From contig CAMYJD010000030.1 in NCBI GenBank assembly GCA_947258655.1, forward strand, positions 3,747 through 43,081: DNA of 39,335 nt. The letters are read 5' to 3'. This document shows positions 13,717 through 34,377 of this stretch, piece by piece. Each line of letters opens with the position of its first letter. The stretch's first letter is position 1. Origin of the DNA: an uncultured Gammaproteobacteria bacterium. GTDB lineage: Bacteria; Pseudomonadota; Gammaproteobacteria; JAADHQ01. The notes under the pieces were generated by a model. The model was not told the origin of the DNA and did not search any database. It saw only the letters and a program-made list of their open reading frames with translations. The position numbers were made by a program, and so were the translations under genes.

Positions 13717-13808
13717 AGTCGGATGTATTGAGTCTTAAGTCGGAAGTCTTAAGTCTTATGTCTTGAGTCTTTTAGACTTCCGGCTCAAGACTTTCGACTT
13801 CCGATTCC
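13715..13808. repeat. Imperfect AAGTCTT tandem array forming a hairpin
   Basis: A run of near-identical 7-8-base units (AGTCTTA, AGTCGGA, AGTCTTA, AGTCTTATG, TCTTGAGTCTT) is followed by their reverse complements (AGACTTCC, CTCAAGACT, CGACTTCCG). GGAAGTCT (13742-13749) pairs with AGACTTCC (13774-13781), and an inner AGTCT-TTT-AGACT hairpin is present. It starts at the PPK2 stop codon; it could act as a transcription end or mRNA-stabilising structure, though no T-run follows. Confidence 0.65.
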
Positions 13809-14118: not shown

Positions 14119-14260
14119 AACCCGCAGGCGTATCAAGGAAAAATAATAAAGGGAAATATTTATGAGTTAGCTTTAGATGAATGTTCAGGTTTGCCGAGTG
14201 TAAATTGATTTCATTTTGCACTCAAAATCAATAATGTGAAGTATGAGCTGGGGGGAGCAT

Positions 14261-16897
14261 ATGCGGGACAATTATTGTATTTCTTTTTTCGGGATGGTTT
14301 TACACAGATCATCTTCCTTTAAGTTTTTGTTACCGCTGTCGGTTGTATTACTCTATCTCCAGGTTGTTATTTCAGCAGAGGTATCGGCACAGGATGTAGT
14401 CCAGCTGGAGAAAGTCGAGGTTACCGGTTATCGTATCAAGCGTACCGATGCAGAGGGCCCATCACATGTTCTGAAGCTTGGGCGCGAGGCCATCGAAAAA
14501 TCCGGAGCAAGCACGTTACCCGAACTGCTGACGCAGTTGCCCGGGGCTACAGTTGCCAGCGAAAGTTTCGCGTTAACAGATACACCTGGTGCCGCATCAA
14601 TCAACCTTAGAGGCCTGGGTCCTAACCGGACACTGGTTCTGGTTAACGGTCGACGCGTCGCATCCAATGCGACATCCAGCAATGTAATAGAATCTTTTGT
14701 AGACCTGAATAGTATCCCGCTGGCGGCCGTCGAACGTATTGAGGTGCTGAAAGACGGCGCATCAGCAATCTATGGTGCAGATGCGGTTGCCGGCGTTGTC
14801 AATATTATCCTGCGCACCGATTATGAAGGAGCAACGGTTAGCGTTGGATATGGGCAGACAGGTGAGGGTGATACGAATGAGTCAACAGTCAGTATTCTGG
14901 CTGGCAAGAAATATAACAAAACCCACATAACTGCCGCATTTGACTATTTCACGCGTGATGAACTGATGCTGGCCGATCGCGATTTTTCCAAAAGTGCAAA
15001 CCATACTTCTAGAGGCGGGATTTCCTATTCGAGTGCATTCGGTAATCCGGGCTCTGCATTTCTGTTGAGCAGCAACTCATTTGCTGCCGATCCAGCCTGC
15101 GGTACAGTACAACCACCCAGTACTTTTGGTGCCAATGGTCTGCCTGGCACGACGGGTGAAATTGCGTTCGGTTTTGCCTGCGGATTTGACACCAATCCGT
15201 TTATCACTGCAATTCCAGAAACTGATCGTTATGGCATTAACCTGACGATGAATCATGAACTGAACAGTAGTCTGGATGCCTTTGCCGAATTCGGTTATCA
15301 AAACAGCATTAGCAGTCATAGGGTTCCTGCAACGCCTGTAGGTGCGGATTTTGATATGCTTGTTCCTTCCACACACCCTACCAATCCATATGGTGATAAT
15401 GTCCTGTTGTTATATCGAATAACCGATGCGGGCCCGCGTATTTTCGAGGCAGATTCAGACAACACACGGTTAGTGCTTGGCCTGAAAGGTAGTACAACTG
15501 AATATGACTGGGACGCTTCGGTGCTGTATTCCAGTAACGAGATATTTCAGGATATCAAAAATCAGATCTCTGTCTCTGCCATGCAAACCGCGTTGGCGAA
15601 CGGTACTTTTGATCCTTTTGGAGGCGCAAGCAACGCGGCATCTGTAGTTGACGGGCTGAAGATCAATACTTTTCGTGATTCCAAATCATCATTGCTGACC
15701 GCAGATCTGAATGTTACCGGTCCCGCTGGTGAATGGGAAATGGATGGCGGCCAGGTATATGTTGCTGCTGGTGTCCAGCTACGTCACGAGGCACTCAAGG
15801 ACAGGTATGACCCGGCTACATTGGCGGGCGATGTAGAGGCTGCAGGTGGTACCTCATCAGATGGTGATAGAGACGTGATATCAGCCTATATAGAGTATTC
15901 ATTGCCCGTCAATGATGATCTCGAAATGCAGGCGGCATTGAGAACAGAGCATTATGATACATATGGACATACACTGGACCCCAAACTGGGCCTACGCTAC
16001 CAGTTTAATGAGCAATGGATGTTCAGGGCTTCTGCAGGGACCGCATTCCGGGCGCCAAGTCTGGTAGAGAATTTCATTGGTGCTACGACCTCCTTTGATT
16101 TTCTGACAGATACAGAGCGCTGCAATCTCACTGGGGCGCCCGCGGATTGTGGTGCCAGTCAGTACCAGGTTGTGTCAACAGGAAACAGGAATCTCGAGCC
16201 GGAAACAGCAAGCTTTTTTAATCTGGGAACAGCAGTACAGATTACTGATGACCTGACTATTACTGTAGATTACTGGAAAATAAATCATCGCAATATCATT
16301 GCAGATAATAAACAATTTATACTCGATACCGATGGCCTGAATCCGGCGCTGGTTCAACGTGGTGCGCCGCAATTTGCCGGGGATCCCGGAGCAATATCAC
16401 AAATAAACGCCAGTTATGCCAATTTCGCCAAACAAAGGATTCGGGGTATTGATCTTGACCTGAAATATGAAGATTCCAGGTGGTATGCGGGTACATTTGC
16501 ATCTTACCTTATAGAGTTTGAAAGAAAATCAACCGCCGATGGCCCGTTTGTTGATTATGATGGTAACCGTATTGGAGACGTGGCCTATCCGCACATGAAA
16601 ATGCAGGTGTATGGAGGTATTACTCGCGAAACATGGAATGGCCAATTGACTATGAACCATCGCAGAGCCATAAAGGACAGCAGTGATGCGGTTGGTGTAA
16701 GGGACATCAATGACATAACGACAGTTGATTTGCAGGTCAGTTATACAGGCGTAAAAAATATGACGTTTACGCTGGGCGGTATCAATATCTTTGACAAGCA
16801 ACCGCCCTTCACAGTTGATGAGGTCTCCGGCTATGAATGGGGGACTGTTGATCCACGGGGTGCTTTCTGGTACCTGCGCATGAAATATGAAATGTAA
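14261..16897 (+). CDS. TonB-dependent outer-membrane receptor
   Basis: About 878 residues. Signal peptide (to about residue 45, ending VSAQD), TonB-box-like VQLEKVEVTGYR, a plug domain (LPELLTQLPGATV, INLRGLGPNRTLVLVNGRR, IERIEVLKDGASAIYGADAVAGVVNII) and a 22-strand-type barrel with conserved FRASAGTAFRAPSL, RNLEPETASFFNLG and the C-terminal FDKQPPF..DPRGAFWYLRMKYEM. Such receptors import a bound substrate using energy from a TonB-ExbB-ExbD complex, which is encoded just downstream (17820-20757). The receptor ends in Met instead of the usual aromatic residue. A start at 14243 is possible; 14261 has GGGGGGAG close upstream. The ligand (siderophore, cofactor or saccharide) cannot be told. Confidence 0.93.
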   Translation: MRDNYCISFFGMVLHRSSSFKFLLPLSVVLLYLQVVISAEVSAQDVVQLEKVEVTGYRIKRTDAEGPSHVLKLGREAIEKSGASTLPELLTQLPGATVASESFALTDTPGAASINLRGLGPNRTLVLVNGRRVASNATSSNVIESFVDLNSIPLAAVERIEVLKDGASAIYGADAVAGVVNIILRTDYEGATVSVGYGQTGEGDTNESTVSILAGKKYNKTHITAAFDYFTRDELMLADRDFSKSANHTSRGGISYSSAFGNPGSAFLLSSNSFAADPACGTVQPPSTFGANGLPGTTGEIAFGFACGFDTNPFITAIPETDRYGINLTMNHELNSSLDAFAEFGYQNSISSHRVPATPVGADFDMLVPSTHPTNPYGDNVLLLYRITDAGPRIFEADSDNTRLVLGLKGSTTEYDWDASVLYSSNEIFQDIKNQISVSAMQTALANGTFDPFGGASNAASVVDGLKINTFRDSKSSLLTADLNVTGPAGEWEMDGGQVYVAAGVQLRHEALKDRYDPATLAGDVEAAGGTSSDGDRDVISAYIEYSLPVNDDLEMQAALRTEHYDTYGHTLDPKLGLRYQFNEQWMFRASAGTAFRAPSLVENFIGATTSFDFLTDTERCNLTGAPADCGASQYQVVSTGNRNLEPETASFFNLGTAVQITDDLTITVDYWKINHRNIIADNKQFILDTDGLNPALVQRGAPQFAGDPGAISQINASYANFAKQRIRGIDLDLKYEDSRWYAGTFASYLIEFERKSTADGPFVDYDGNRIGDVAYPHMKMQVYGGITRETWNGQLTMNHRRAIKDSSDAVGVRDINDITTVDLQVSYTGVKNMTFTLGGINIFDKQPPFTVDEVSGYEWGTVDPRGAFWYLRMKYEM

Positions 16898-16943: not shown

Positions 16944-17028
16944 GGCAGTAGTTGTCTAAAACATTATATAAATTTTCGTGACAACTATCCGTTGTACCTG
17001 CCTGTATAGAATTGGGGTGTACAGGTTG

Positions 17029-17823
17029 ATGAAAAATATAAGAGTAAAAATACTGGTACCGATCTCTATTGCAGCCATATTTATCCTTGGTGGAATCTTT
17101 TCTTATCAGCCAGTTGCGGCAGAGACAACTTTAAAAAAATCAATTGCAATCCAGAACCAGATCAACAGAGCGTCGGCGAACTCCCAGAAAAAGGTTGATC
17201 GTATATCTGATGAAGCGGACCGGCTTCTGCATGAATATCGTTATACGCTCAGGAAAACAGAAGGCCTGCGTGTCTATAATGATCACCTTGAAAAAATCGT
17301 CAGCGCACAGGAAGAGGAAATATCCTCGATAAACGATCAAATCGACAGGGTAGAGGTCACCAATCGCGAAATTGTTCCCTTGATGCTGAGAATGCTTGAT
17401 GCATTAAAGAAGTTTGTGTCGCTGGATGTCCCATTTCTACAGGATGAAAGACAAAACCGTATCAACAGTCTTGCCAGAATGGTAAACAGGGCAGATGTCA
17501 CGACCTCGGATAAATTTCGACGTATTATGGAAGCCTACCAGATAGAGACAGAATATGGTCGTACTATCGAAGCCTACAAGGGGCAGTTGTCGAATGGTGA
17601 TAGCAACAAGACTGTAGAGTATCTCAGAATCGGACGTCTGGCACTTTTCTATCTGACCCTGGATGCAAGAGAATCCGGTATATGGGATCTGGCAACCAGG
17701 GAGTGGATAACATTGCCTGACAAATACCGGCTATCGATCAGGGAAGGCATCCGTATAGCCAGGAAGCAATCCGCTCCTGATCTTCTTGTTCTGCCTGTCA
17801 GTGCTCCAGAGGTCCTGCAATGA
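17029..17823 (+). CDS. DUF3450 periplasmic coiled-coil protein of the TonB2-type operon
   Basis: A 264-residue protein. Signal peptide (residues 1-32, ILVPISIAAIFILGG...PVAA), then a long coiled coil (about 35-115) and a helical domain with LDVPFLQDERQNRI, TTSDKFRRIMEAYQIETEYGRTI and LALFYLTLDARESGIWD, the family signatures of DUF3450. This family sits at the head of TonB2-type operons in Vibrio and relatives and is thought to be an accessory of the energy-transducing complex; its exact role is not known. The frame opens at a GTG (16978), but ATG 17029 gives the signal peptide. Its stop overlaps the next start (ATGA), showing translational coupling. Confidence 0.88.
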   Translation: MKNIRVKILVPISIAAIFILGGIFSYQPVAAETTLKKSIAIQNQINRASANSQKKVDRISDEADRLLHEYRYTLRKTEGLRVYNDHLEKIVSAQEEEISSINDQIDRVEVTNREIVPLMLRMLDALKKFVSLDVPFLQDERQNRINSLARMVNRADVTTSDKFRRIMEAYQIETEYGRTIEAYKGQLSNGDSNKTVEYLRIGRLALFYLTLDARESGIWDLATREWITLPDKYRLSIREGIRIARKQSAPDLLVLPVSAPEVLQ

Positions 17824-19175
17824 AAAACCTGATAATGTCTGCAATGCTACTGATGCTGTTGGATTTCTCCTTTATCCCTGCTGCAGTATCGGCCGAAATA
17901 AAAACGCTGGAGCAACTGCTGGACCATGTGCGTAAATCGAAATCACTGGAGACAGCAGAGAACAGACAACGTGAACAACGGTTTATTGCTGAGCGAAACG
18001 AGAGGAAGCGCCTCCTTGCCGAGGCTGTAGGCAATCTGAAAAATGAAGAAAAAAGGGAAAAGAAGCTCAGACGTAAATTCGATGAGAATGAGAAAATACT
18101 GGCTAAAGAAGAGGAAAGGCTGCATCTGAGCATGGGTTCACTCGGTGAATTGTTCGGTGTTGTACGCCAGATGGCTGGGGACACATATGCGATTCTGGAA
18201 AATTCACTGGTTACAGCGCAAAATCCGGACAGGACGGAGACCGTAAAAAAACTTGCAATCCAGAAATCCACCCCTGATATCGAACAGTTGGAGAATCTCT
18301 GGATCAGCCTGCAGGATGAGATGACACATTCCGGCAAGGTGGTAAAATTTCCGGCCAGTGTCGTCAGTATAGACGGCACTGAAACAGAACAGCAGGTAAC
18401 ACGAATCGGGGTGTTTAATATTGTCTCTAATGGAAAATATTTACGTTATATCGCAGAAACCGGGCAACTTGTTGAACTTGCGCGACAACCATCATCACGT
18501 TATCTGGACATAATATCCGATCTCGAAAATGCCCAGGAAGGCATGCATGCGGCAGCTATCGATCCTTCCCGGGGTACAATTCTCTCCTTGCTGGTACAAA
18601 CGCCGGGACTGGGGGAACGTATTCAACAGGGAAAAATCATAGGCTATATCATTCTGGCCATTGCCTGTATCGGGCTCCTGATTGCACTCGAACGTATCAT
18701 CAGGCTACAAATAGTCAGTAGGCGTATCAATAAACAGATGAAAAATCCTGAGCCATCAGGGAATAATCCGTTGGCTGCCATCATGTCTGTCTATCAGAAA
18801 AACATTTCACTCGACGCAGACAGTTTATCCAGAAAGCTTGATGAAGTAATACTAAAACAAATACCACCTGTGCAACGCGGTATCTCGACCATTAAAATAC
18901 TGGCCATGATTGCGCCATTGTTGGGATTGCTCGGTACCGTTACAGGCATGATCGAAACATTCCAGTCCATCACCCTGTTTGGAACAGGCGATCCAAAATT
19001 GATGGCCGGAGGAATATCCCAGGCCCTGGTTACTACAGCTTTGGGTCTGGTTGCCGCAATCCCGCTTATTTTGTCACACACTTTCGTAAACACGAAAAGT
19101 AAACAAATCATCGATATTCTTGATGAGCAGAGTGCCGGTCTGCTTGCTTTGCAGGCAGAACAAGAAAAAGCCTGA
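17820..19175 (+). CDS. ttpC: TtpC-type MotA/TolQ/ExbB family protein with periplasmic coiled coil
   Basis: A 451-residue protein: signal peptide (to about residue 27, AAVSA), a charged coiled coil (about 30-110, rich in KRLLAEAVGNLKNEEKREK), a periplasmic domain, and a C-terminal ExbB/TolQ channel domain with one helix around 280-300 (IIGYIILAIACIGLLIA) and two at APLLGLLGTVTGMIETF and ALVTTALGLVAAIPLIL. This long ExbB-like form is TtpC, the extra component required by Vibrio TonB2 systems; it sits in the inner membrane and works with ExbB2/ExbD2/TonB2. It is translationally coupled on both sides (ATGA before, TGATG after). Confidence 0.88.
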   Translation: MKNLIMSAMLLMLLDFSFIPAAVSAEIKTLEQLLDHVRKSKSLETAENRQREQRFIAERNERKRLLAEAVGNLKNEEKREKKLRRKFDENEKILAKEEERLHLSMGSLGELFGVVRQMAGDTYAILENSLVTAQNPDRTETVKKLAIQKSTPDIEQLENLWISLQDEMTHSGKVVKFPASVVSIDGTETEQQVTRIGVFNIVSNGKYLRYIAETGQLVELARQPSSRYLDIISDLENAQEGMHAAAIDPSRGTILSLLVQTPGLGERIQQGKIIGYIILAIACIGLLIALERIIRLQIVSRRINKQMKNPEPSGNNPLAAIMSVYQKNISLDADSLSRKLDEVILKQIPPVQRGISTIKILAMIAPLLGLLGTVTGMIETFQSITLFGTGDPKLMAGGISQALVTTALGLVAAIPLILSHTFVNTKSKQIIDILDEQSAGLLALQAEQEKA

Positions 19176-19696
19176 TGGATCAGTTTATATACATAATGGA
19201 TGCGCTAACGGATTTTTTTGAATCCGGAGGGATGGTGCTCTGGTTGATTTTGGGTGTGGCGATCATATTATGGACGCTGATTATAGAACGCTACTGGTAT
19301 ATGTATTTTACCTATCCTGCTCATGCAAAGCGAATCAGGCAACAGTGGAGCGACAGGATGGACAGGCACTCATGGTATGCAGAAAGAATCCGGGAGACCT
19401 ATGTATCAGACGCAAGCACCCGGCTTAATAAGTCATTGGCGATTATCAATACTCTTATTGGTCTTTGCCCGCTATTGGGACTGTTGGGCACCGTTACAGG
19501 CATGATTCATGTTTTTGATGTTATGGCTGTCTCGGGAACGGGCAACGCCAGAGAAATGGCTTCTGGCGTATCTTATGCGACCATTCCTACCATGGCCGGC
19601 ATGGTTATAGCGTTGTCCGCCTTGTATTCACGTGTACAACTGAAGCAGAAGGCAATTCATGAAACGCGAAGATTAACGGACGTATTAAGCGAATGA
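19175..19696 (+). CDS. exbB2: ExbB2 proton-channel subunit
   Basis: A 173-residue MotA/TolQ/ExbB family protein, short as ExbB2 forms are. A first membrane helix lies near residues 18-38 (GMVLWLILGVAIILWTLII), then CPLLGLLGTVTGMIHVFD and the last helix TIPTMAGMVIALSALY. Its LLGLLGTVTGMI motif matches the one in TtpC. With ExbD2 it forms the inner-membrane channel that uses the proton gradient to drive TonB. The start overlaps the ttpC stop. Confidence 0.9.
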   Translation: MDQFIYIMDALTDFFESGGMVLWLILGVAIILWTLIIERYWYMYFTYPAHAKRIRQQWSDRMDRHSWYAERIRETYVSDASTRLNKSLAIINTLIGLCPLLGLLGTVTGMIHVFDVMAVSGTGNAREMASGVSYATIPTMAGMVIALSALYSRVQLKQKAIHETRRLTDVLSE

Positions 19697-19712
19697 TTTG
19701 AGGGTTGTATCT

Positions 19713-20120
19713 ATGGGACGCAGAAGAACAGAACATGAGGAAGACACAGAAATAAACATGACGCCAATGCTGGATATTGTGTTTATTATGCTGATTTTCT
19801 TTATTGTAACCACATCCTTCATAAAGGAATCAGGCATCGATGTTAATCGCCCAGACGCAAGTACGGCAGAGCGCAAGGAGCGGGGTAATATTCTGATCGC
19901 AATCAATGAGAGCAATGAAGTCTGGATGGACAGACGTAATATAGATCTGCGTGCGGTCAGGGCCAATGTTGAAAGATTTCGTGCCGAGAACCCTGAAGGC
20001 TCCGTGGTTATACAGGCCGATAAAAACGCCAGAACAGGTATCCTGATACAGGTTATGGATCAGACAAGACTGGCAGGTGTAACCAATATCTCGATTGCAG
20101 CTAATCAGGATACCCGTTAA
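19713..20120 (+). CDS. exbD2: ExbD2 biopolymer transport protein
   Basis: A 135-residue single-pass protein. After a charged start (MGRRRTEHEEDTEINMTPML) the sole membrane helix DIVFIMLIFFIVTTSF begins with Asp21, the proton-carrying residue of ExbD/TolR. A periplasmic domain follows (NILIAINESNEVWMDRR, VVIQADKNARTGILIQVMD), typical of the family. The frame opens at a TTG (19698); the ATG at 19713 has TGAGGG about eight bases upstream. It lies 16 bp after exbB2. Confidence 0.92.
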   Translation: MGRRRTEHEEDTEINMTPMLDIVFIMLIFFIVTTSFIKESGIDVNRPDASTAERKERGNILIAINESNEVWMDRRNIDLRAVRANVERFRAENPEGSVVIQADKNARTGILIQVMDQTRLAGVTNISIAANQDTR

Positions 20121-20124
20121 TTAG

Positions 20125-20757
20125 ATGCGATATACGATGTCACTACTGTCTGCGCTGATTATCTCAGGTTTGTTGTTTATAGCGATGAACCTGCTGATCT
20201 CACGCGGACAATGGAATATCAGTGACGCGCAAAGCTATTCTATTGTCGATTTTGTCAGAATAAAGCCGGAAGAACGTGTAGATGCGCGTAAGAGAACATT
20301 GCCAAAAAAGAAACCGGTTCCACAGCAGGAAGTGCACAAAACTCAGGTCCGCACCAGTAAAGTTTCGAAAAGAGAAATACAGATGTCAAATCTGTCAATG
20401 GAAACTCCTGCAATCGACGGAATCAAACTGCAAAGTGGCCTGTTCCTTGGTGGATTCAGTAAGGAAACTACAGCATCATTGCCTGATGGTGATGCCCAGC
20501 CTCTGCTCAGGATTGCACCGCAATATCCGAGGAGGGCGGCCGTAAAAGGTGTAGAAGGGTGGGTCAAGATTGCATTTACTATACAGGGAGATGGATCCGT
20601 GCTCGATGCAAAGGTCATTGATGCAAAACCATCCAGGATATTTAATCGGGCTGCCCTGAATGCCATCAAGAAATGGAAATTCAAGCCCAGACTGGTTGAA
20701 GGTAAGCCAGTACCGAGAAAAGCAGAACAGATCATAGAGTTCACATTGTCAAAATAG
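20125..20757 (+). CDS. tonB2: TonB2-type energy transducer
   Basis: A 210-residue protein: N-terminal membrane anchor (LLSALIISGLLFIAMNLLI), a basic, Pro/Lys-containing linker (about 45-95, LPKKKPVPQQE), and a C-terminal TonB domain (about 130-210) with PQYPRRAAVKGVEGWVKI, GSVLDAKVIDAKP and FNRAALNAIKKWKFKP, the family's YP and AL--W-F signatures. The linker is short, as in TonB2 proteins. It transmits energy from the ExbB2/ExbD2/TtpC complex to outer-membrane receptors, plausibly the one at 14261. It starts four bases after exbD2; an ATG at 20137 is also possible. Confidence 0.92.
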   Translation: MRYTMSLLSALIISGLLFIAMNLLISRGQWNISDAQSYSIVDFVRIKPEERVDARKRTLPKKKPVPQQEVHKTQVRTSKVSKREIQMSNLSMETPAIDGIKLQSGLFLGGFSKETTASLPDGDAQPLLRIAPQYPRRAAVKGVEGWVKIAFTIQGDGSVLDAKVIDAKPSRIFNRAALNAIKKWKFKPRLVEGKPVPRKAEQIIEFTLSK

Positions 20758-20762
20758 GTCTC

Positions 20763-21983
20763 ATGCCGGCGCATACACAAAATACTATTGCTAATTTACT
20801 GGTCATCTTCGTGCTGTTTTTTGTGATCTGCCCGGAACAAGCCAGCAGCAAGCTGTTGACTGAGAAAACCTACAAGAAATTATCCAGAATTCATGAGCTG
20901 GTCAGTACGAATAAATACAATGATGCACTGGTCAAGCTGGATGCCCTTTCTACAAAAATAAAAAATAACAAATATGAAACAGCTCTGGTCAATCAAACCT
21001 ACGCGTATATATATGCATCCAGGGAAAATTATCCAAAAGCCATTGCATATTATAAAAAAAGTCTTACCAGTGGCGCACTGGACAAACGCCTGGTCAGCGA
21101 TATCAGGTTTTCGCTAGGCCAGATATATATTATGACGGGTGACTACAAGCAGGGTATTTCAATACTGGAGCCAATGCTTGAATCTGCTGAAAGGTCAACG
21201 CCAAATGTTCAAATCCTTGCCGCAAGTGCCTACATTGAATTGAAGGCGTATCAGAAGGCCGTCAACTTACTCGAGTCTGCACTGAAACAGGTCAATAAAC
21301 CCCGTGAAAGCTGGCAGCAAATGTTATTGTCTGTGTACTATAAACTGAAGCAATATAGAAAGGCAGCCATCCTGCTGGAAGAGCTTGTTGAGCGATTTCC
21401 CGATAAAAAGATTTACTGGAACCAGTTGTCCAGTGTTTATTTCAGTCTGAATATGCCACTACGCTCATTGTCAACAATGGAACTGGCCTATCAGCGAGGC
21501 TTGTATGTAAAAGAAACGGAACTGAAAAACCTGGTTAATCTTTATTTATTAAATAATATCCCGTTAAAAGCGGCAGAAGCGTTCGTTACCGGACTGGATC
21601 AGGGGATAGTCGGCAAAAGTGAAAAGAACTGGCTACATTTGGCAAATATATGGCTGGTTGCAAGGGAATCGGGTAAGGGTATACAGGTTCTGAACAGGGC
21701 CTTCAGTTCTGATCATAATCCGGATATCGGAATGAGGATGCTGGACGTTTTTCTCAGACAGCAAAAATGGAATGACGTCATAACATTGACCCAGACAATA
21801 ATCGATCGTAGTAATGCTAGCGAACTTGACCGAGCATACTATCACCAGGGCATCGCTTATTACGAAGTTGGTCAGTACAAGAAAGCATTAAAATCACTGC
21901 AGAAAATAAAGAATCCAACAGGAGTAACGGGCGATACAGCAACATGGATACAGCACATCAAAACAGCTGTGGTCAATAACTAA
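20763..21983 (+). CDS. TPR protein, last gene of the TonB2-type operon
   Basis: A 406-residue protein with an N-terminal hydrophobic signal (LLVIFVLFFVICPEQASS) and tetratricopeptide repeats through most of its length (ALVNQTYAYIYASRENYPKA, RFSLGQIYIMTGDYKQG, LAASAYIELKAYQKAVNLLE, LLSVYYKLKQYRKAAILLEE, YYHQGIAYYEVGQYKKALKS). TPR proteins occupy this same position after tonB2 in Vibrio-type clusters. It probably acts as a periplasmic scaffold for the complex; direct evidence of function is not in the sequence. Five bases separate it from tonB2, so it is in the operon. Confidence 0.85.
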   Translation: MPAHTQNTIANLLVIFVLFFVICPEQASSKLLTEKTYKKLSRIHELVSTNKYNDALVKLDALSTKIKNNKYETALVNQTYAYIYASRENYPKAIAYYKKSLTSGALDKRLVSDIRFSLGQIYIMTGDYKQGISILEPMLESAERSTPNVQILAASAYIELKAYQKAVNLLESALKQVNKPRESWQQMLLSVYYKLKQYRKAAILLEELVERFPDKKIYWNQLSSVYFSLNMPLRSLSTMELAYQRGLYVKETELKNLVNLYLLNNIPLKAAEAFVTGLDQGIVGKSEKNWLHLANIWLVARESGKGIQVLNRAFSSDHNPDIGMRMLDVFLRQQKWNDVITLTQTIIDRSNASELDRAYYHQGIAYYEVGQYKKALKSLQKIKNPTGVTGDTATWIQHIKTAVVNN

Positions 21984-22091: not shown

Positions 22092-22395
22092 CAAATAATG
22101 CAACGACTAATAAACTGTGTTCGCCAGGATGTATGAAAGCAGTTTATACAAAAAATAAAGTCGTGTTCCCCCCAAACAGGTTACGTTCTTGACAGTTCGT
22201 TTTTGACGAGATGTGGATGAGAAGTTGAACGCAAATGGAAGTTGCCCATGAATTAGTTTAACCGGGCATACTGTTTTCAAGTTTTATCAATGAACAGTCC
22301 ATGAACAGTAATCCCGGCTACATGTATCTTACGAAATGTATGATGCATTTCTATTAATGCCAGCGAGACTACAAAATTAAATTGGGGTGTATGTC
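22092..22395 (+). other. Long 5' leader of the PFFGL-repeat gene
   Basis: About 300 bp between the predicted transcription start and the start codon with no open frame of note. Local direct or inverted repeats are seen (ATGAACAGTCCATGAACAGTAAT at 22289-22311 has two copies of ATGAACAGT). No known riboswitch was recognised. The gene's ribosome site is GGGGTG, seven bases before ATG 22396. Confidence 0.4.
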
Positions 22396-25300
22396 ATGCT
22401 TAACTCTGAAAAATCAGTATCTGATCGCAAAGGCCTTCCTTCATGGGGAATCATCTTCCTCCTGTTATGCGGAGTATTTTTTTCATCTCTGGCAAGTGCC
22501 GCAACCGGTCTTGTTAATCCCGGATTCGAATCAGGCCTGACTGACTGGTCAGTCACTGAGACGGTGACCGGATCGGTCGCCGCAGTGGGTACCGAAGACG
22601 GTTCGGTTTCACCGACATACAGTGATACGGGAATAAGCATATCGCCATTTTCCGGTAACCAGATGGCGCGCACTGCGAATCCCAAGAACATATCAGAGAA
22701 ACAGGAACGTGGCACCTATTCCGTATCGCAAACATTTGTTGCAGAAAGTGACTCATTACATCTCGCATTCTGGTTGTTGTCATGGGAGCACAGGGGGGAC
22801 GATCAGTTCAGGTTAAACCTGACATCAAACGGCCAGGCAGGATACAACGTCAGTCTTGGCGGGAATAGCAACGGATCGTTGCAGCTAAGCAAGAAAGGTG
22901 CGATCGCTGCATCCGGTACGGTCCTGTCGAATTGTGTAACACCTTGCGAATTCAATATCGATGCGGGCAAAAGAGGCAAGTTCGTTAATACGGGTTGGGT
23001 CTCGGCGTCCATTGACGGTTTAACTGTCGGTCAAACCTATAAGGTTGAATATGCCATTATCGGCGGACAAAACGAGGCACACGCGTCCTGGGCCTACTTC
23101 GATAACTTGAATACGCCTCCAGTAGCCATTTTTGATTATGGACCCAAGCCAGGCGTGGAAGGTGATTTTACTCAGTTTGTTGACAAATCCTATGACCCGG
23201 ATCCGGGCGACAAAATCGTGTCATGGAAATGGAGTATCATCGGTGTGCCAGACGGCATAATAGAACTCCAGCATCCTCCTTTCCCTTTCCCTGATGAAGG
23301 CGAGCATGTGGTTGAACTGACAGTGACCGACTCCTTTGGTGAGAGTACTACAGTCAGATCGGGCGAGCTTGCGACAGATGGTACACTTGTACCTGAAGTT
23401 GTTATCGATAATGTTGCCCCCTTTGTCAATGCTATTAGTCATGAAGTGCTCGCCGGCGAACAGGTAGGACTCATCGGACGGTTTGCAGACCCCGGTTTTC
23501 TCGATACACATAAGGCCAAATGGGGCCACAACGGGATCATACAGATATGTACTGCGGGAGCGGACACGGGTGATGCGGTGACCTGTCTGGAAGAAAACGA
23601 TCCATCATTTTCCACCGGAATAACACGTGAATTGATAGACATTCCAGACGATGCAGTTGCTGGAACCAGCTTGACCAGTAAATTGACAGTCATTGATAAT
23701 GTCGGTGACAGGAGTTCCAGTACAGCCAAACTGCAGGTTGTTGATGCAACTGGTGACATGCATGAAAGCGGTAGCGATGATGTCAGCACAGCGCCTGTCC
23801 TGTTAAGTGACTGGTCCTATCTGGCCAAGATCGAAGAAACAGGTGATATCGATATCTTCGAATTGAAACCGGATTTTGACGGCAATGGCCAGGCAGACAG
23901 TTTGCCTGCAGGCAGTGAAATACTGGTTGAGCTCAGCGGCTTGAATGCTGATTATGACCTGATCTTTGTTACAGATGATCCGAGTTCTGCAGTGCCGGGG
24001 CAGGTCCAGAGCGCACCATTCTTCGGCCTGCCGTTCTTCGGGCTACCGTTCTTCGGCTTGCCTTATGAAAGTACCCCATTCTTTGGCCTGCCATTCTTCG
24101 GCTTGCCATTCTTTGGCCTGGATACCATGAGTACGCCGTTCTTCGGACTACCGTTCTTTGGCCTACCATTCTTTGGCCTGCCATTCTTCGGACTACCATT
24201 CTTCGGCCTGCCCGCCGATCTTAATCAGTCGCAGCTGACCAATATCTACCAGAATTCCACGTACTCGGAAATTCCGTTAAGCTGGAATGGCTATACCACG
24301 CCGGAAGGCTCGCAACTGGGTGGCTCTGACCTGAGCCCGACAGAACTGGGAATCAGCAGCGTACTCCCGGATGGCTACAGGATAGCCGCCTATTCAGCAG
24401 GACGCGGTACGCAGAACGAAAAGATTATTATTCGTACCGATCGCCCGGATACCAAGGTCTATGCATATATAGCGGGTGCCAACGGTGCTTTCAACATTAA
24501 CAAGCCATACAGGTTGCAGGTTGAGATGTCCCGTCCGCTGGACATCAAGGCACAACTCAAGGCACAGGGGCTGTGCACGGGTACGCCTATTGTATCTCCG
24601 GCAACGCCACTTCGAACGCTGGCCGGTACAGGGGGTGGTACACAGACGTTAATAGTGACCCAGCTGGAGCGCATGGCCGTTATCCATGGCGACGTGGCAG
24701 CACTGGAGGCAGACCTGGCCAGCTTTGGTGCCAGTCACAATGCCAAGGTCATCTCGCTCCCAAGTGATCTTTATGACAACTGGGATATAAATCCCTGTGA
24801 TGTGGATGCTGCCAATGCTGTAACGGCAGAAATCCGCGACATCATCAATGATCAATTATCGCAGAATGATTTTGAATACATTGTGTTTGTTGGCGGGGAC
24901 TCGGTTATTCCATCACGACGCGTCAAGGACGAGACCTCGATCGGTAATGAAAGCCTGTATACATCACAATCGTTTGTGGCGCCGGGCACACCATTATTCT
25001 TCAGTTTGCGTGAAGGCAATATACTGACAGATGATTATTATGTGGACAAGGATCCGATCCCGTGGCGCGGCCGTGAGTTGTATATCGCCGACAAGCCGGT
25101 TGCCAGGCTGATCGAGACCCCGGCACAAATCAGCAAGGCCTTGAACAGTTACGGTCCGGTATTGACCGCCAGTACGGCAATGCTGAGCTCCTACGAGTTC
25201 TTCCGTGATGGTACAGAAGACACTGCTGTAGCCTTGAATGGACTGGATCAGGATACGCTGTTCAGTGAGACCTGGACTGCAGATGACTTACGCTGCAGCT

Positions 25301-27369
25301 TGCTGGGCATCGGGCAGGGCTGTTCGGTCAGTGATATCAGCAATCCGAATGCACATTACTCGCATTACGCAGCATTATCTGCACTGGGATACAACACCGG
25401 GCTGGTGGATATCCTTACCAGTGCAGACATTGAGTCTGTGCCTTCGGCGCTGGAAGACAAGCTGGTATTTTCGATTGGTTGTCATGCCGGCCTGAATGTT
25501 CAGAATGGTACCTCGGTACCAACGGGTTCCGGTTTGCTGCAGGTGGATGGAAATCTTGATCTGGCTGAAACCATGGCCAGGCAGGGCGCCATCTTTGCAG
25601 GATCGACCGGATTCGGCTACGGCGAAACGGAAGGTTCTGCAGGAACCGAAAGGTTAATGACCTTATTCGCAGAAGAAATGGCCAAGGGAACCAATATCAG
25701 TGTTGGCAAGGCAATGCTCAGGGCCAAACAGCGCTATATCGCCAGCCTGTCGACATTGACCGCCTATGATGAAAAGTCGGTTATCGGTATGACCCTGTAC
25801 GGACTGCCCATGTCCCAGGTAAATATCCCTGTACCGACCCCTGTCGCCGCTGCTCCGGCTGATTACACCTTTACATTGAGTATTGATGACCAGCAACAGG
25901 CACCGGTCAATCTGACCGGCATATCAAAGGGCAGTCTCGGTGAGTATTTCGCGGCCGATGGTGATACCCAGGTAACAGCCGGACGCGCGATCCAGCCACG
26001 CGTTGTTGTATCGGGCCTCACTGCCGCTAATCAAACAGCGGCCCATGGTGTGTTGGTCACTGCAGGAACGTACATTGATTTGCCCGGTCTTGACCCGGTC
26101 ATATCACGTCCAACCCAGGAATGGGAACAAGCCGTGACGGAGCCGCAAATCTGTCTGCCCGCTTTCTGGCCTTCGCTGATGGCTTCAATCAATACGGTCG
26201 GCTCAGACGCCAATGCATCGCAGACATTGGTGGTGACGCCTGGACAGTTCAGGTGTGACAGCGCAGCTGCCGCAGTTGTTACCGGTACCCAGCGTTTGAT
26301 GACATCCATGAATGTGGATGTACTGCGCTCGGATTCTGACGACTTTACACCACCGCAGATCACGACTGTCGACATACGTACACCAGACAACACGCTTGAA
26401 CTGGATATTGATACGACTGATGACAGTGGTATATCGAGAATTGTCGTATTACTGTTCAATAATGGAGTGGTAACACCGGTTGTAAATTTTGTTCCTGCAA
26501 GCGGGGATGTAGCACCCTATACCTTGCAAGTTGACTCTTATCCGACAGATGCCAGGATTGCAATCCAGGTCGTGGATGGAAACGGTAATGTGTCCAATTG
26601 GACTGCGAAGGGGCTTAATGCAAAACCATTGAGAGTCGATGCGGGACCTGACCAGTATTACACACCGAATCAAGCCACAACATTGACTGCCACTATCGAG
26701 GAATTCGATAAGCTGGTATTCAGTGGTAATGACGTCTACTACAGCTGGTACTTTGGTGATGGTGAGGAAATATCCGGTCTGCTGGTCAAGGACGGGGTAA
26801 CTGTACCCACTGATGTAAACAGGCCGGCGCCGATTGTTGTCGATGCAAATGGAACAGCATCATTCGATGTCAGTCACGCGTATCCCGGTCCTGACACATA
26901 TGTTGCAACTGTCAAGATTACCGATAAGGATGCCGGCATCGGTGTCGATAAGGTCACGATCAGGAGATTGTGTGATGCGGTCGACCAACCGGATTTCCCT
27001 AATGGTGATCTGGTTGGCTGCTCATTGAGCAATGATGCCGATAAATTCAGGCTCTCTGTGAGAGTGGCAGGTACCATCGATCCGGACTTCCAGTACCGTG
27101 TCTACCTTGATCTGGATAATGGGCAGGGCGGTTTCACCCAGATCAAGTACGCAGATGGCAATGTGACCGGTCTTGGCAGTTTACAGGCCTTCATTGATCC
27201 TGAAGACCCGCAGACGGTCGTCTATACATTTGATCGCACAGAAGTCGATACATCTGTGAGTACGATTGACTGGTATGCGGAAACCCAGGATGGTATCAAG
27301 GGAGGGAAAGGCCAGGGATTTGTTGATCGTATGCCAGATGTCGGAGGAGAAACCTATACCATCAAGTAA
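22396..27369 (+). CDS. Giant exported C25/caspase-fold-like protein with PFFGL pentapeptide array and PKD domains
   Basis: A 1657-residue protein. Signal peptide (cut near ASA36), a beta-rich N-terminal module (GLVNPGFESGLTDWSV..., carbohydrate-binding-like), a PKD-like domain (about 241-335), an Ig-like segment, then an 11-copy PFFGL array (541-605). Residues about 752-1145 resemble peptidase family C25 (gingipain, clan CD): FEYIVFVGGDSVIPSRR, a His-containing HYSHYAAL (His987/His990), FSIGCHAGLNV with Cys1029 as likely nucleophile, and GAIFAGSTGFGYGETEG. The classical GHG is not conserved, so activity is uncertain. A second PKD domain (about 1413-1525) and a beta-rich end follow. There is no type IX secretion tail. 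It is followed by a hairpin and the cyclase gene. The GTG at 22387 is a possible start. Confidence 0.75.
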   Translation: MLNSEKSVSDRKGLPSWGIIFLLLCGVFFSSLASAATGLVNPGFESGLTDWSVTETVTGSVAAVGTEDGSVSPTYSDTGISISPFSGNQMARTANPKNISEKQERGTYSVSQTFVAESDSLHLAFWLLSWEHRGDDQFRLNLTSNGQAGYNVSLGGNSNGSLQLSKKGAIAASGTVLSNCVTPCEFNIDAGKRGKFVNTGWVSASIDGLTVGQTYKVEYAIIGGQNEAHASWAYFDNLNTPPVAIFDYGPKPGVEGDFTQFVDKSYDPDPGDKIVSWKWSIIGVPDGIIELQHPPFPFPDEGEHVVELTVTDSFGESTTVRSGELATDGTLVPEVVIDNVAPFVNAISHEVLAGEQVGLIGRFADPGFLDTHKAKWGHNGIIQICTAGADTGDAVTCLEENDPSFSTGITRELIDIPDDAVAGTSLTSKLTVIDNVGDRSSSTAKLQVVDATGDMHESGSDDVSTAPVLLSDWSYLAKIEETGDIDIFELKPDFDGNGQADSLPAGSEILVELSGLNADYDLIFVTDDPSSAVPGQVQSAPFFGLPFFGLPFFGLPYESTPFFGLPFFGLPFFGLDTMSTPFFGLPFFGLPFFGLPFFGLPFFGLPADLNQSQLTNIYQNSTYSEIPLSWNGYTTPEGSQLGGSDLSPTELGISSVLPDGYRIAAYSAGRGTQNEKIIIRTDRPDTKVYAYIAGANGAFNINKPYRLQVEMSRPLDIKAQLKAQGLCTGTPIVSPATPLRTLAGTGGGTQTLIVTQLERMAVIHGDVAALEADLASFGASHNAKVISLPSDLYDNWDINPCDVDAANAVTAEIRDIINDQLSQNDFEYIVFVGGDSVIPSRRVKDETSIGNESLYTSQSFVAPGTPLFFSLREGNILTDDYYVDKDPIPWRGRELYIADKPVARLIETPAQISKALNSYGPVLTASTAMLSSYEFFRDGTEDTAVALNGLDQDTLFSETWTADDLRCSLLGIGQGCSVSDISNPNAHYSHYAALSALGYNTGLVDILTSADIESVPSALEDKLVFSIGCHAGLNVQNGTSVPTGSGLLQVDGNLDLAETMARQGAIFAGSTGFGYGETEGSAGTERLMTLFAEEMAKGTNISVGKAMLRAKQRYIASLSTLTAYDEKSVIGMTLYGLPMSQVNIPVPTPVAAAPADYTFTLSIDDQQQAPVNLTGISKGSLGEYFAADGDTQVTAGRAIQPRVVVSGLTAANQTAAHGVLVTAGTYIDLPGLDPVISRPTQEWEQAVTEPQICLPAFWPSLMASINTVGSDANASQTLVVTPGQFRCDSAAAAVVTGTQRLMTSMNVDVLRSDSDDFTPPQITTVDIRTPDNTLELDIDTTDDSGISRIVVLLFNNGVVTPVVNFVPASGDVAPYTLQVDSYPTDARIAIQVVDGNGNVSNWTAKGLNAKPLRVDAGPDQYYTPNQATTLTATIEEFDKLVFSGNDVYYSWYFGDGEEISGLLVKDGVTVPTDVNRPAPIVVDANGTASFDVSHAYPGPDTYVATVKITDKDAGIGVDKVTIRRLCDAVDQPDFPNGDLVGCSLSNDADKFRLSVRVAGTIDPDFQYRVYLDLDNGQGGFTQIKYADGNVTGLGSLQAFIDPEDPQTVVYTFDRTEVDTSVSTIDWYAETQDGIKGGKGQGFVDRMPDVGGETYTIK
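24016..24210 (+). repeat. 13-unit, 15-nt tandem array encoding PFFGL pentapeptides
   Basis: Thirteen consecutive 15-base units encode, in order, PFFGL x3, PYEST, PFFGL x3, DTMST, PFFGL x5. The two spacer units are also exactly five residues long, so the period never slips. Codons vary silently between copies (CCA/CCG, TTC/TTT, GGC/GGG/GGA, CTG/CTA/TTG), so the peptide rather than the DNA is conserved. Confidence 0.97.
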
Positions 27370-27476: not shown

Positions 27477-30400
27477 TTGAAAACAGTGGTTGATTCTTCA
27501 AAAAGCCCCGATAGCAGAGCACAGAAAACTGTTCTTCAATATCTCCCCTCACCGTTAATCCAGGAATGGGTGAATAATACCCCGCAGGAACCGATCTGGG
27601 GTAAATGGCTGACCGGCTCCCTGATGCATTGTGACGTCACCGGTTTTACAGCCATGTCAGAAGCTCTCGCAAAAACTGGAAAGGAAGGCGCCGAGCTGAT
27701 GGCGACAATCCTTAACCGCTTCTTCGAACGCATGATCAGCCTGGCCGGTGAGTGGGGTGGTGCGCAGATGAAGTTCGGCGGCGATGCCATGTTGCTCTAT
27801 TTTACAGGACATGATCATGCACTGCGTGCCTCTGCATGTGGCCTGGAATTACAAAAAGCGATGCGCGAATTTCATCGCGTCAAAGTGCTCGATGGTTACA
27901 CAACCCTGCGGATGCGTATCGGAATTCACAGTGGTAGGTTTTATTCGGCTTCAACCGGGCAACAGCAGGGGCTGCTTCATTATCTGCTTATTGGCAAAGA
28001 CGTTAATGAAACTGCACTCGTGGAACCGATGGCGGAGCCGGGCGAGGTGGTTATCAGCGAGGCATGCAAGGATCTGCTGGACCAGCGCAGTTATCTGAGT
28101 ACGACTGCACATCAAGGTATTTACAAGGTGAAAAAAGTTGTAGCCAGCAAGGATCAGCTGGAGCAGATAGATACCTCAAAAGTGCCCGTGGAAATTCTGC
28201 GACGTTACCTGATGCCGCCCATTGCGAATGGTATGACATTGGGTCTGAAGGGCGAGAACAGGCGGGTAATCATAGTATTCATTGATTTGCATGGTGCAGC
28301 CGGCTTGCTTGATCGGGACGGAGAGAACGTAGCACTTCAGGAACTGAATACGTATATGGATATACTGTTTAATCTGGTCTCCAGACATGGAGGTTATTTG
28401 TCTGCCAGTGATGTCGCTGAGGAAGGCGATAAACTGATTGTTTTATTTGGCGCACCGGTTTCACTGGACAAACCGGAAGCCAGTGCGATGCGATTTGCGC
28501 TGGGCCTGCGCGACAGTATCTTGAATTCCGGTTTACATCTGAAACAGCATATCGGCATTAATTCCGGATATGTATTTTCAGGTGAAATAGGCTCGCTCAA
28601 TCGTCGCGAATATACCGTGATAGGCGACAGTGTGAATCTGTCCGCCCGTCTAATGGCCGCTGCGGATATGAATACAATCCTCGTATCAGAGGCGACAGCA
28701 ACCCGAGCAGGGGGAGAATTTGACCTGTGCAAACTGGATCCGATCCGGGTAAAGGGCAAAAGCCAGCCGATCGATATTTGCCGGCTTGATGGCTTCAAAT
28801 CAGCATCCGCCCAGAAGCACGATGAATTACCGTTTCTTGGCAGGGATGCCGAGTTGGCGCTACTGTCAAAAGTGGCCGCGAAGACACTGGAAAACAGGTC
28901 AGCATGTGCCTATGTATCAGACAAACCAGGTATCGGAAAGTCACGCCTTTGTGAAGAATTTTCACAATCACTGGAAGCAGAAGGCTGGCAATACCTGAAA
29001 AGTTTATGTCAGCGTCATACTGCCGACACGCCTTTCAGCGCATGGCGAGTACCGTTACGTGTTCTGTTTGGACTAAAGGTATCAGACCCTCCTGAAGTCT
29101 GCTGGCAAAAACTGTATGCTGCGGTTACTGAAATTGATCCCGGCCTGAAAGATTTTGCCGTTCTTGTTGCGGACGTTTTGCTGATATCCGGGGAAGAAAA
29201 CCCCGTTGTCAATTCAATGGACAGCAAAACCCGTCACGAGAGACGATTGTCCACGATCGTAAAACTGCTCAATCATTATGCCCGTATCAATCCCATTGTC
29301 GTTTTGATCGAGGATGTGCAGTGGATCGACGGACCGTCATGCGAACTGGTCAATACCATTCTGTCGAAACAATCCAGTCGCATCCTTATATGTCTTAACT
29401 CACGCAGTGTTGAAGTACCCGAGCACATTACACTTAAACCCGACCTCGAAATAAACCTGCCTGAGCTGACGGAAAATATCTCCACAGAACTGGTCGCATC
29501 ATACCCGCATATAGAACCGGAGCGGATATCGGCGATCGTAGAAAAGTCGAGCGGTAATCCATTATTTATCAGTGAATTACTCAAAAGCCATGCAGCCGGT
29601 GCAGGTGCACTGCCTGAGACCGTATATGACGTCATTATGGTCAGGCTGGATCAGCTGACGGAAGAGAAAAAAAATATCCTGCGACTGGCTTCTGTCATTG
29701 GTCATAATTTCGAGTATGAAATACTGAAGTTGATACTGATCAGTGAAATTGCTGATGAACAGCTGAATATCATTCTTTCTGGTCTGGTCGATGACGGTTT
29801 TCTGGAGCCACATGCCGACAGGCAGATTTATGAATTCAGCAACAACCTGGCCTGGGAAGTTGTGTATGAAACATTACTCTATGCCTCGCGCAGACGGATT
29901 CACAAGCGGGTTGCGGAGGCAATCGAGAAAAATAACACCGATAATATCATGCCCATTGCAGGTTTGCTGACGCATCATTATGAACAGGCGGGAATGCAGG
30001 ACAAATTCATCCATTATGGTGTGCTGGCCGGTGATCATGCCGCATCCATGTTCGCCAATGATGAAGCGTTTGATTATTATAAAAAGACACTCCATTCCCT
30101 AAAACAGAACTACAGTCACTATATCGGTGATCTCAGCGCATTATATGAACGGATCGGTGATGTATATCAGACGACAGGGCATGATAATGAGGCTGAATCC
30201 AGTTACATGAAGGCATTGACAGCATGGCATACAACGACCAAAGGCAGGCGATCAAAATTTATAAAACATGATCATCCTGGCCGTCTGAGTGAATCTGTTA
30301 TAAGTCATAAAATAGCCATTTCCTGCGAAAGAAAATCAGAGTGGGACAAATCCATAGACTGGGTCAACAAGGCACTCGATGCCATTCCGGACCGGCCAGG

Positions 30401-31418
30401 CAGTCTTGCTGCGCAGATATGTGCCACCAAGAGCGGAATTTTGCTACGCAAAGGTGAATACCAGGAAGCTATCAAATGGGCAAAAGAGGCACTGCAACGC
30501 TCGGAAAAAACCAAGGACACCAAGTCAAAGGCGCATGCGAGGAATGCGCTAGCCCTGTCCTATATAGAATCAGGGCAATTGACTGACGCTGTCGAGTGTT
30601 TGCAAAAGGCCATCACATTATATGAAGAGCTGGGCGATTATTCCGGCCTGCTAACCGCAAACAGTAACCTGGGCGGTTGCCTGCAATATACCGGTGATTT
30701 CGATGCAGCGGCCAGACATTATAAAATCGCGCTGGATGTCAGTAAGCAAATGGATAATGTCCTGTGGGTGGCAATCAGTTCGAGTAATCTTGCCGAACTG
30801 TATATTATCTGGGGGGAAATCGATGAAGCCATAAAGCAACTTAATGTAGTGGCCGATGCCTATAACGATAATCTCTGCTCGCCTGCAATAGCCGGATTTT
30901 CATTTATCAACCTGAGTCGTTGCCATATGGCACAGAAAGACTATCCGGCAGCCATGGATAGCCTGAACAAGGGTATAGACATCCTCAAGGAGCTAGGCGC
31001 AACTGGATTGCTGGTCGAGGCGGATTTGCAACTGGTAGAGCTCTGGCTTGAACAAGGTAAGGCTTCTGATGCATTAAAAAGTTGCAAACAGGTCCTGAAA
31101 AAGATCAAGGAGCTTGATGCAAAAATGCTCCAGGTAAAAGGCGAGCGTTTAATGGGGATGTGTCTGATTGCGGTAGGTGAAATAGAGGCAGCAACCATAC
31201 ACATCAGGGAAAGTGTTGAACTAGGCAAAAAGGTCGGTGCGGACCTTGAACATGCCAGATCACTGATAGCACTGGCAAAACTCTCCATGGAAGACTTGGC
31301 CGGATTCAGTCATCTGACCAGTAAATACATAAATAGTGCAATTGAAATATTTGAGCGAATTGGCGCAAAACTGGATCTCAAGCATGCACAACAATTACTG
31401 GAGAAGGGGGCAACATAA
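27477..31418 (+). CDS. Tandem class III nucleotide cyclase with AAA ATPase and TPR domains (soluble adenylyl cyclase-like)
   Basis: A 1313-residue cytoplasmic protein. C1 cyclase domain (about 45-225) has metal Asp53 in HCDVTGFT and Asp103 in KFGGDAMLLYF. C2 (about 262-440) has Asp270, EEGDKLIVLFGAP with Asp318, and transition-state residues Asn387/Arg391 in VIGDSVNLSARL; C1 has Asn177 but no matching Arg. An ATPase module follows (ELPFLGRDAEL, Walker A DKPGIGKS at 482-489, Walker B VVLIEDVQWID), then TPRs to the end. This order equals that of mammalian soluble adenylyl cyclase, a bicarbonate-responsive enzyme. The likely product is cAMP; nucleotide specificity is not proved. The start is TTG 27477 (GTG 27486 possible); an in-frame stop at 27450 rules out earlier ATGs. 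The next gene encodes a cyclic-nucleotide-binding protein. Confidence 0.88.
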   Translation: MKTVVDSSKSPDSRAQKTVLQYLPSPLIQEWVNNTPQEPIWGKWLTGSLMHCDVTGFTAMSEALAKTGKEGAELMATILNRFFERMISLAGEWGGAQMKFGGDAMLLYFTGHDHALRASACGLELQKAMREFHRVKVLDGYTTLRMRIGIHSGRFYSASTGQQQGLLHYLLIGKDVNETALVEPMAEPGEVVISEACKDLLDQRSYLSTTAHQGIYKVKKVVASKDQLEQIDTSKVPVEILRRYLMPPIANGMTLGLKGENRRVIIVFIDLHGAAGLLDRDGENVALQELNTYMDILFNLVSRHGGYLSASDVAEEGDKLIVLFGAPVSLDKPEASAMRFALGLRDSILNSGLHLKQHIGINSGYVFSGEIGSLNRREYTVIGDSVNLSARLMAAADMNTILVSEATATRAGGEFDLCKLDPIRVKGKSQPIDICRLDGFKSASAQKHDELPFLGRDAELALLSKVAAKTLENRSACAYVSDKPGIGKSRLCEEFSQSLEAEGWQYLKSLCQRHTADTPFSAWRVPLRVLFGLKVSDPPEVCWQKLYAAVTEIDPGLKDFAVLVADVLLISGEENPVVNSMDSKTRHERRLSTIVKLLNHYARINPIVVLIEDVQWIDGPSCELVNTILSKQSSRILICLNSRSVEVPEHITLKPDLEINLPELTENISTELVASYPHIEPERISAIVEKSSGNPLFISELLKSHAAGAGALPETVYDVIMVRLDQLTEEKKNILRLASVIGHNFEYEILKLILISEIADEQLNIILSGLVDDGFLEPHADRQIYEFSNNLAWEVVYETLLYASRRRIHKRVAEAIEKNNTDNIMPIAGLLTHHYEQAGMQDKFIHYGVLAGDHAASMFANDEAFDYYKKTLHSLKQNYSHYIGDLSALYERIGDVYQTTGHDNEAESSYMKALTAWHTTTKGRRSKFIKHDHPGRLSESVISHKIAISCERKSEWDKSIDWVNKALDAIPDRPGSLAAQICATKSGILLRKGEYQEAIKWAKEALQRSEKTKDTKSKAHARNALALSYIESGQLTDAVECLQKAITLYEELGDYSGLLTANSNLGGCLQYTGDFDAAARHYKIALDVSKQMDNVLWVAISSSNLAELYIIWGEIDEAIKQLNVVADAYNDNLCSPAIAGFSFINLSRCHMAQKDYPAAMDSLNKGIDILKELGATGLLVEADLQLVELWLEQGKASDALKSCKQVLKKIKELDAKMLQVKGERLMGMCLIAVGEIEAATIHIRESVELGKKVGADLEHARSLIALAKLSMEDLAGFSHLTSKYINSAIEIFERIGAKLDLKHAQQLLEKGAT

Positions 31419-31462
31419 ATAATTCAATACAGCTTTTCAATAATTAATAAAGGGGAGATTTT

Positions 31463-31990
31463 ATGGATGATATTAACAAGAATGGTCTGGAAGAAGTCGA
31501 TAAGGATGCACAGTATCTGGATAATTTCAGGAGCATTATTTCAGATATTCACATGTTTTCTGAACTCACTGAAGACGATATTGATGATCTATCAAAATAT
31601 TTATCAAAATACAAGGCAGTCAGTGGCGTTGAGGTGACACGTGAGGGTGATACCGAGGGCTATATGTGTATCGTCGTAAAGGGAAAGCTTGAAGTGATGA
31701 AAAACGGCGCTACGGATGATGAATATCAACGTATCGCTGTAATACGTGCAGGCAGAACCATTGGCGAGATGACGTTGCTGGACGAACTGCCGCATTCGGC
31801 AACAATCGTCACATCCGAAGATTCTATTTTTCTTATTTTAACCAAATCGATGTTTGATGACATGATTGCGCAAAATATGGCGCTTGGTATCAAGATTCTG
31901 AAAATCATTGCGCGCCTGGTCAGCCTGAGATTAAGGCAAACCAGCGGTGTGCTTGTGGATGTATTACAGAACCAGAATAATTTTTACTAG
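31463..31990 (+). CDS. Stand-alone cyclic nucleotide-binding domain protein
   Basis: A 175-residue protein of the CRP/PKA-regulatory cNMP-binding fold: FSELTEDDIDDLSKYL, then GVEVTREGDTEGYMCIVVKGKLEVM (beta roll), and the phosphate-binding cassette GRTIGEMTLLDELPHSATIVT. Glu102 that binds the ribose is present, but the position of the phosphate-binding Arg holds His111. There is no helix-turn-helix, GAF or kinase domain after it, only the C-terminal helix. It begins 45 bp after the cyclase gene with a strong GGGGAG ribosome site and is probably the receptor for that cyclase's product. The His substitution may change ligand or affinity. The downstream target is unknown. Confidence 0.85.
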   Translation: MDDINKNGLEEVDKDAQYLDNFRSIISDIHMFSELTEDDIDDLSKYLSKYKAVSGVEVTREGDTEGYMCIVVKGKLEVMKNGATDDEYQRIAVIRAGRTIGEMTLLDELPHSATIVTSEDSIFLILTKSMFDDMIAQNMALGIKILKIIARLVSLRLRQTSGVLVDVLQNQNNFY

Positions 31991-33945: not shown

Positions 33946-34377
33946 GTGGTGGAAGAAGATGGGAAAAGAGGGCGTAGACTAAGAAGAATGGAAATAAACT
34001 ATCTGGTTTTCTACAATAATATTGAAATCGGAGATACTATATTTATAGGGAATTAACCCCTTGAACTGAACTCCTTGAATTACGTCATGATGTTATTTTC
34101 TGAACACGAGACCATAGAATATCATCATGTAATCTAATTATAATATTTTCAGATGGATTATAGAAAATTAAATGAAGCTTGAATGGCTGAGTATCATCAA
34201 ACACAAGTTTAGAGTTTGTATACTTTTAAGTTTAATAACTGAAAAAGATAATTCCATTTGTAATTGACTTGGGGGGAAAGCGCTTCTATTCTTTAATATT
34301 AGAAAAGGGAAACTTATTTTCATTTATACTTGGTAAGGGATGAGCTAAATTCCCTACTCCAAACCGAGGGGGCGACA
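33946..34377. other. Intergenic region before the S8 protease
   Basis: About 430 AT-rich bases with no recognisable gene. GGGGGGAAA (34271-34279) resembles the GGGGGGAAA (36951-36959) just after the protease gene, so the two may mark the ends of one transferred unit, although nine bases is too short to be firm. Confidence 0.4.

Follow-up and report, generated by a model that had tools for sequence, protein, structure and literature searches.

The window analysed here, a stretch of 39,335 nucleotides from the genome of an uncultured gammaproteobacterium, carries on its forward strand a gene (22387–27369) for a predicted secreted protein of 1,660 amino acids, matched over all or nearly all of its length by homologues in two other genomes. 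A hydrophobic, signal-like segment at the N-terminus is followed by an NPGFE-type N-terminal domain, PKD domains, a PPC-like domain containing an array of short repeats, a C25 peptidase domain and a further PKD domain; PKD domains thus flank the array and C25 region on both sides. Export of the protein is a prediction from its sequence. When the whole protein is scanned against Pfam only the PKD domains are reported, and an NCBIfam scan of all 1,660 residues gives no match. Among proteins of known structure, the PKD part has a weak relative in the collagenase ColH (E about 0.04), and other PDB sequence searches with the host protein returned nothing useful.

Directly upstream and on the same strand lies a TonB2-type operon (16978–21983), recognised by its Pfam matches and gene order. 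It encodes, in sequence, a DUF3450 protein (TtpB-like), a MotA/ExbB protein with an N-terminal extension (TtpC-like), ExbB, ExbD, TonB and a TPR protein (TtpD-like), and so unites all six components in one operon, the equation of the DUF3450 protein with TtpB and of the TPR protein with TtpD being made by domain and order only. The set matches the Vibrio TonB2 operon; V. vulnificus cannot take up siderophores through TonB2 unless it has both TtpB2 and the TPR protein TtpD2 (PMC6957404). Gene order is identical at a locus of a genome of the same genus (L011). A gene for a TonB-dependent receptor (14243–16897) precedes the operon, and a tandem AGTCTTA-type repeat (13716–13771) is found straight after a PPK2 gene. 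On its downstream side the array gene adjoins a forward-strand gene for an adenylate/guanylate cyclase–AAA–TPR protein (27477–31418, assigned by Pfam). The latter is followed by a gene for a cyclic-nucleotide-binding protein, and the two (27477–31984) may form a signalling pair beside the peptidase. The same two neighbours, array gene and cyclase gene, are also adjacent at loci L010, L016 and L023, where TonB-type genes remain nearby. It is plausible that the peptidase and the TonB system might co-operate, for example in the uptake of released peptides or of a metal. A predicted S8 (subtilase) peptidase (34330–36945) is encoded downstream of this cluster. The window also contains an IS91-type transposase (37335–38842), which may be frame-shifted, its zinc-binding domain (37335–38165) being overlapped by a second frame (37970–38842), and, at its start, a 126-nucleotide tandem repeat in 2.2 copies (45–323).

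The array itself occupies positions 24016–24210 of the forward strand. It consists of eleven perfect PFFGL units in a single frame and a strict 15-nucleotide register, arranged as three copies, the spacer PYEST (24061–24075), three copies, the spacer DTMST (24121–24135) and five copies. This is the arrangement given in the preliminary description, which had also pointed out, correctly, that both spacers end in ST, short though this shared ending is; the interval of residues 530–620 that it had named narrows to residues 544–608 of the reading frame 22387–27369. At the array, Tandem Repeats Finder detects repeats with periods of 15, 45 and 60 nucleotides, the 60-nucleotide period corresponding to a super-unit of (PFFGL)3 plus one spacer that occurs twice. 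Within the host protein there are 30 positions at which a pentamer equals the next pentamer, whereas none of 2,000 shuffled versions of its sequence had more than 1. The array, 65 residues in span, is strongly hydrophobic (GRAVY 1.07), with 35% aromatic residues and a net charge of −2.

Neither Pfam nor NCBIfam has a model at this site, so that the array does not belong to a described domain or repeat, and a literature search for PFFGL, WGELAWG and FFGLPFFG found nothing relevant. Several known repeat systems nevertheless bear a likeness to it. In nucleoporin FG/GLFG repeats, as in the PFFGL array, Phe-Gly pairs recur at regular intervals along a stretch that is probably disordered; there is no homology between the two, however, the array belongs to a bacterial secreted protein, and one relative has Trp-Gly. 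The five-residue period is shared with the pentapeptide-repeat proteins (PF00805), but PFFGL does not fit their A(D/N)LXX register, the host protein has no Pfam match to PF00805, and one homologous array has a period of seven residues. The intragenic tandem repeats of bacterial surface proteins, such as the Ser-Asp repeats of staphylococcal adhesins (PMC3324548), are similar in being short, in frame, located in exported proteins and probably subject to slippage-driven change, whereas here the unit is aromatic and hydrophobic, is replaced between relatives, and changes its period (five or seven residues).

The array is inserted into a candidate PPC-like beta-sandwich (residues 465–720; 23779–24546, forward strand), which was delineated by hhalign and an AlphaFold2 model and which sits immediately N-terminal to the catalytic domain. 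It is preceded by the strand DLIFV, and the later strands of the sandwich end in VYAYIAGANGAFNINKPYRLQVE. With the array removed, the region aligned with 18 PPC domains at an hhalign score of 26.2 (E 3.8e-4), over only 28 columns in its N-terminal part, compared with scores of 7.6–12.3 for five column shuffles. The array-removed region has no Pfam match to PF04151, nor was one found in a search of its own genome. We call the domain PPC-like rather than PPC because the PF04151 match is absent and the profile–profile match is partial; a PPC-like fold is thus partly shown. AlphaFold2 models built from three sequences are weak (mean pLDDT 37 and 46). They place strands on either side of the array and render the array as coil at a pLDDT of about 22–32; the structure prediction proposed in the preliminary description therefore yields a coil between strands, at low confidence. 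Fold searches with the sandwich model of mean pLDDT 46 retrieved generic beta-sandwiches only (best Foldseek E 1.9; best Z 7.0), hits that a model of such low confidence leaves uninformative. A close parallel is with PPC/collagen-binding-type and PKD modules such as those of clostridial ColH: the motif PAG...L...ADYDLIFV and the final strands of the host protein resemble PPC, and PKD domains are present in the same chain; it differs in that its sandwich lies below Pfam detection, is interrupted by the 65-residue array and is placed N-terminal to the peptidase.

The peptidase domain (residues 793–1139; 24763–25803, forward strand) matches PF01364 at E 5e-8 (33 bits against a cut-off of 23) when residues 459–1147 are scanned separately; the match is reported neither by the whole-protein scan nor by a six-frame search of the genome. 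All three homologues match the profile at E ≤ 10, the best at E 3.5e-8. In an hhalign comparison with 22 C25 open reading frames from other genomes of the class (98.1% probability), His990 falls on the His of the GHG motif and Cys1032 on the catalytic Cys, and both residues are invariant in the three homologues. The canonical GHG has become AHY in the host protein, and since its Gly residues are not kept we regard the domain as a divergent branch of the family. The protein thus resembles the gingipains and other C25 peptidases in its PF01364 score above the curated cut-off, in its aligned His and Cys and in having a sandwich domain just ahead of the catalytic domain; it differs from them in the AHY motif, in the PKD domains on both sides and in the internal array. 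By these features the host protein is a divergent C25 (gingipain-family) peptidase, and a putatively active one.

Proteins of this kind are rare. Of 369 genomes sampled evenly across the class, two contain the family, that of the window and that of the uncultured Gammaproteobacteria ES_Gamma_034 (G003), a member of the same genus; a third genome has a match confined to the PKD region. The search for more homologues also covered the orders of the genomes that contain L014 and L016 and another sample of 368 genomes of the class, which yielded G003 alone. A search for (PFFGL)n, as had been suggested, located the array in the window's genome only: among the 369 genomes no other contains even two adjacent units. 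The corresponding WGELA-type pattern was confined, in the class sample, to G003. Several candidates were rejected. Matches in G241 and G035 cover the PKD region only, and one in G048 is the GEMPG-type tail of a SurA-like protein, which we attribute to chance low complexity. The (GEMPG)n-type array that ends a SurA-like protein at L012 (2302–2565), outside the window's genome, is unrelated to the PFFGL array. Among plasmids, four from cyanobacteria match weakly, and in the PKD region only; phages contained no match to the host protein and viral contigs no homologue of it. Two viral contigs (L024 and L026, with the same open reading frame) have three PFFGL units in a Ser/Phe-rich frame outside the context of an array gene, again probably by chance, and a third (L025) matched the DNA pattern for two units, but no PFFGL frame is read there.

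The homologues carry arrays at the same site, made of other units. That of G003 is 56% identical to the host protein and has (WGELA)n, comprising 13 WGELA units and one WGELS with one interruption of TPLIA plus A (76 residues; net charge −14; GRAVY 0.24); its contig begins inside the gene. Two paralogous array genes are present in this same-genus genome (L010, 8219–12643; L011, 7735–9296), both on contigs that end inside the gene, and the second paralogue stops with its contig exactly at the array site. In PMV_4.23 (L014), a more distant gammaproteobacterial metagenome-assembled genome, a full-length homologue of 42% identity has (TPFLFGR)8 (56 residues; net charge +8; GRAVY 0.31). Only the C-terminal end of a homologue is present at L016, in a third genome. 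The comparison covers three proteins whose arrays can be read, of which two or more come from metagenome assemblies. In each of the three there is exactly one array region, its span lies between 56 and 76 residues (65, 76 and 56 for PFFGL, WGELA and TPFLFGR), and every unit contains an aromatic-Gly pair and a Leu. The unit sequence, the period (five or seven) and the net charge (−2, −14 and +8) are not conserved; outside the array the proteins are 42–56% identical. It appears, then, that the slot, a span of about 56–76 residues and the aromatic-Gly repetition are conserved and that the repeat unit is replaced. A TP dipeptide stands ahead of units or after interruptions in all three proteins (ESTPFFGL, MSTPFFGL, LSTPLI and TPFLFGR), a post hoc observation that is only a hint of a common origin of the arrays.

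Within each genome the units are uniform in peptide sequence. Eight DNA sequences encode the eleven PFFGL units. They depart from the consensus at 17 places, in six types of change that are all synonymous, although of all single changes possible in the consensus unit only 26.7% would be silent (p ~4e-4). Each variant type was counted once because slippage can copy variants, so this value is conservative. Likewise, all 4 variant types of the WGELA array (p ~4e-3) and all 13 of the TPFLFGR array (p ~2e-8) are synonymous; perfect units alone were counted, with spacers and edge units (WGELS and TPWLRDP) set aside. The purifying selection on the peptide that the preliminary description had proposed for the PFFGL array therefore holds up in all three arrays, and within each genome it seems to be the residues of the units that were under selection.

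We propose, at a probability of roughly 0.4, that the array is an exposed, disordered and multivalent adhesive loop on a secreted C25 peptidase. It would form a flexible loop between two strands of the PPC-like sandwich, immediately before the catalytic domain, and its 56–76 residues could supply many weak, identical contacts because each unit carries an aromatic-Gly pair and hydrophobic residues. Adhesion by avidity might then be directed at a hydrophobic or polymeric substrate, at the outer surface or at other copies of the loop, and would assist the PKD and PPC-like modules in keeping the peptidase close to what it cuts. Within a genome the units would be homogenised by slippage and unequal recombination, and selection would purge residue changes in them, with the whole unit being replaced over longer times. 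The evidence that we count for this reading comprises the same-site arrays, their silent-only variants, the low-pLDDT coil, the PKD and PPC-like neighbours, and the C25 domain with its His and Cys. Against it, low pLDDT from three sequences is not proof of disorder, and the units differ so strongly in charge and hydropathy (GRAVY 1.07, 0.24 and 0.31) that one common ligand is hard to imagine. Moreover, no short-period array was found within about 1,500 nucleotides of the domain at 30 loci around other C25 matches in the class, by a detector that finds all three known arrays, and C25 peptidases in general therefore do not need one.

The variability of the units, at a roughly constant span of 56–76 residues and in proteins that are otherwise 42–56% identical, would also be expected of a permissive site at which repeats grow by slippage and are tolerated as a spacer, length or flexibility mattering and residue identity hardly at all, under moderate constraint and homogenisation. 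This explanation is less likely, since 6, 4 and 13 variant types that are all synonymous are unlike neutral drift and an aromatic-Gly pair recurs in every unit. Somewhat less likely still is a role in zymogen latency, in which the array-bearing sandwich would be a prodomain and its loop would mask the active site, or compete for it, until cut by the enzyme itself or, for example, by the S8 peptidase encoded nearby. The sandwich does lie directly ahead of the C25 domain, and there is a parallel in RgpB, whose N-terminal prodomain inserts an inhibitory loop into the S1 pocket; autoprocessing cuts this loop first (PMC4357240). Yet PFFGL, WGELA and TPFLFGR have no obvious common cleavage residue apart from Leu, blocking one active site needs no repeated array, and the likeness to PPC domains favours a module for binding over a prodomain. 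Self-processing sites, a further idea of the preliminary description, are possible, though the three units offer no obvious residue at which all of them could be cut.

The stacked Phe-Phe or membrane-inserting hydrophobic ladder of the preliminary description fits the composition of the PFFGL array, with its GRAVY of 1.07 and 35% aromatic residues, but it does not survive as a conserved function: in the homologues the same slot takes units that each carry a charge (one Glu per WGELA, one Arg per TPFLFGR; net −14 and +8), so that neither the five-residue period nor the FF pair is required, and Pro recurs every five residues. We consider insertion of such a ladder into a membrane or surface very improbable. 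Slighter still is the chance that the loop is a variable decoy whose changes evade recognition by grazers, phages or rival bacteria. TonB-dependent receptors are often used by phages, a gene for one lies near the array gene, and the unit is indeed replaced between relatives; the variation within a genome is silent, however, and no diversity is displayed inside one array.

If the adhesive-loop reading is extended to the family, these proteins would form a rare C25 subfamily in which a fixed slot in a substrate-binding domain holds species-specific aromatic-Gly micro-repeats, uniform in each genome but exchanged as a whole from one species to the next, and serves as a swappable sticky module that determines what the peptidase attaches to; in this full form we think the proposal unlikely. 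In tandem repeats of exported bacterial proteins it is usually the copy number that varies and the unit that is stable. Here, in contrast, three homologues keep the site and roughly the span of the array but differ in its unit, period and charge, and the variants within a genome are silent. The family thus offers a small natural experiment on which property of a low-complexity loop is visible to selection, be it length, the spacing of aromatic-Gly pairs or the identity of the residues, and the protein lends itself to expression and testing.
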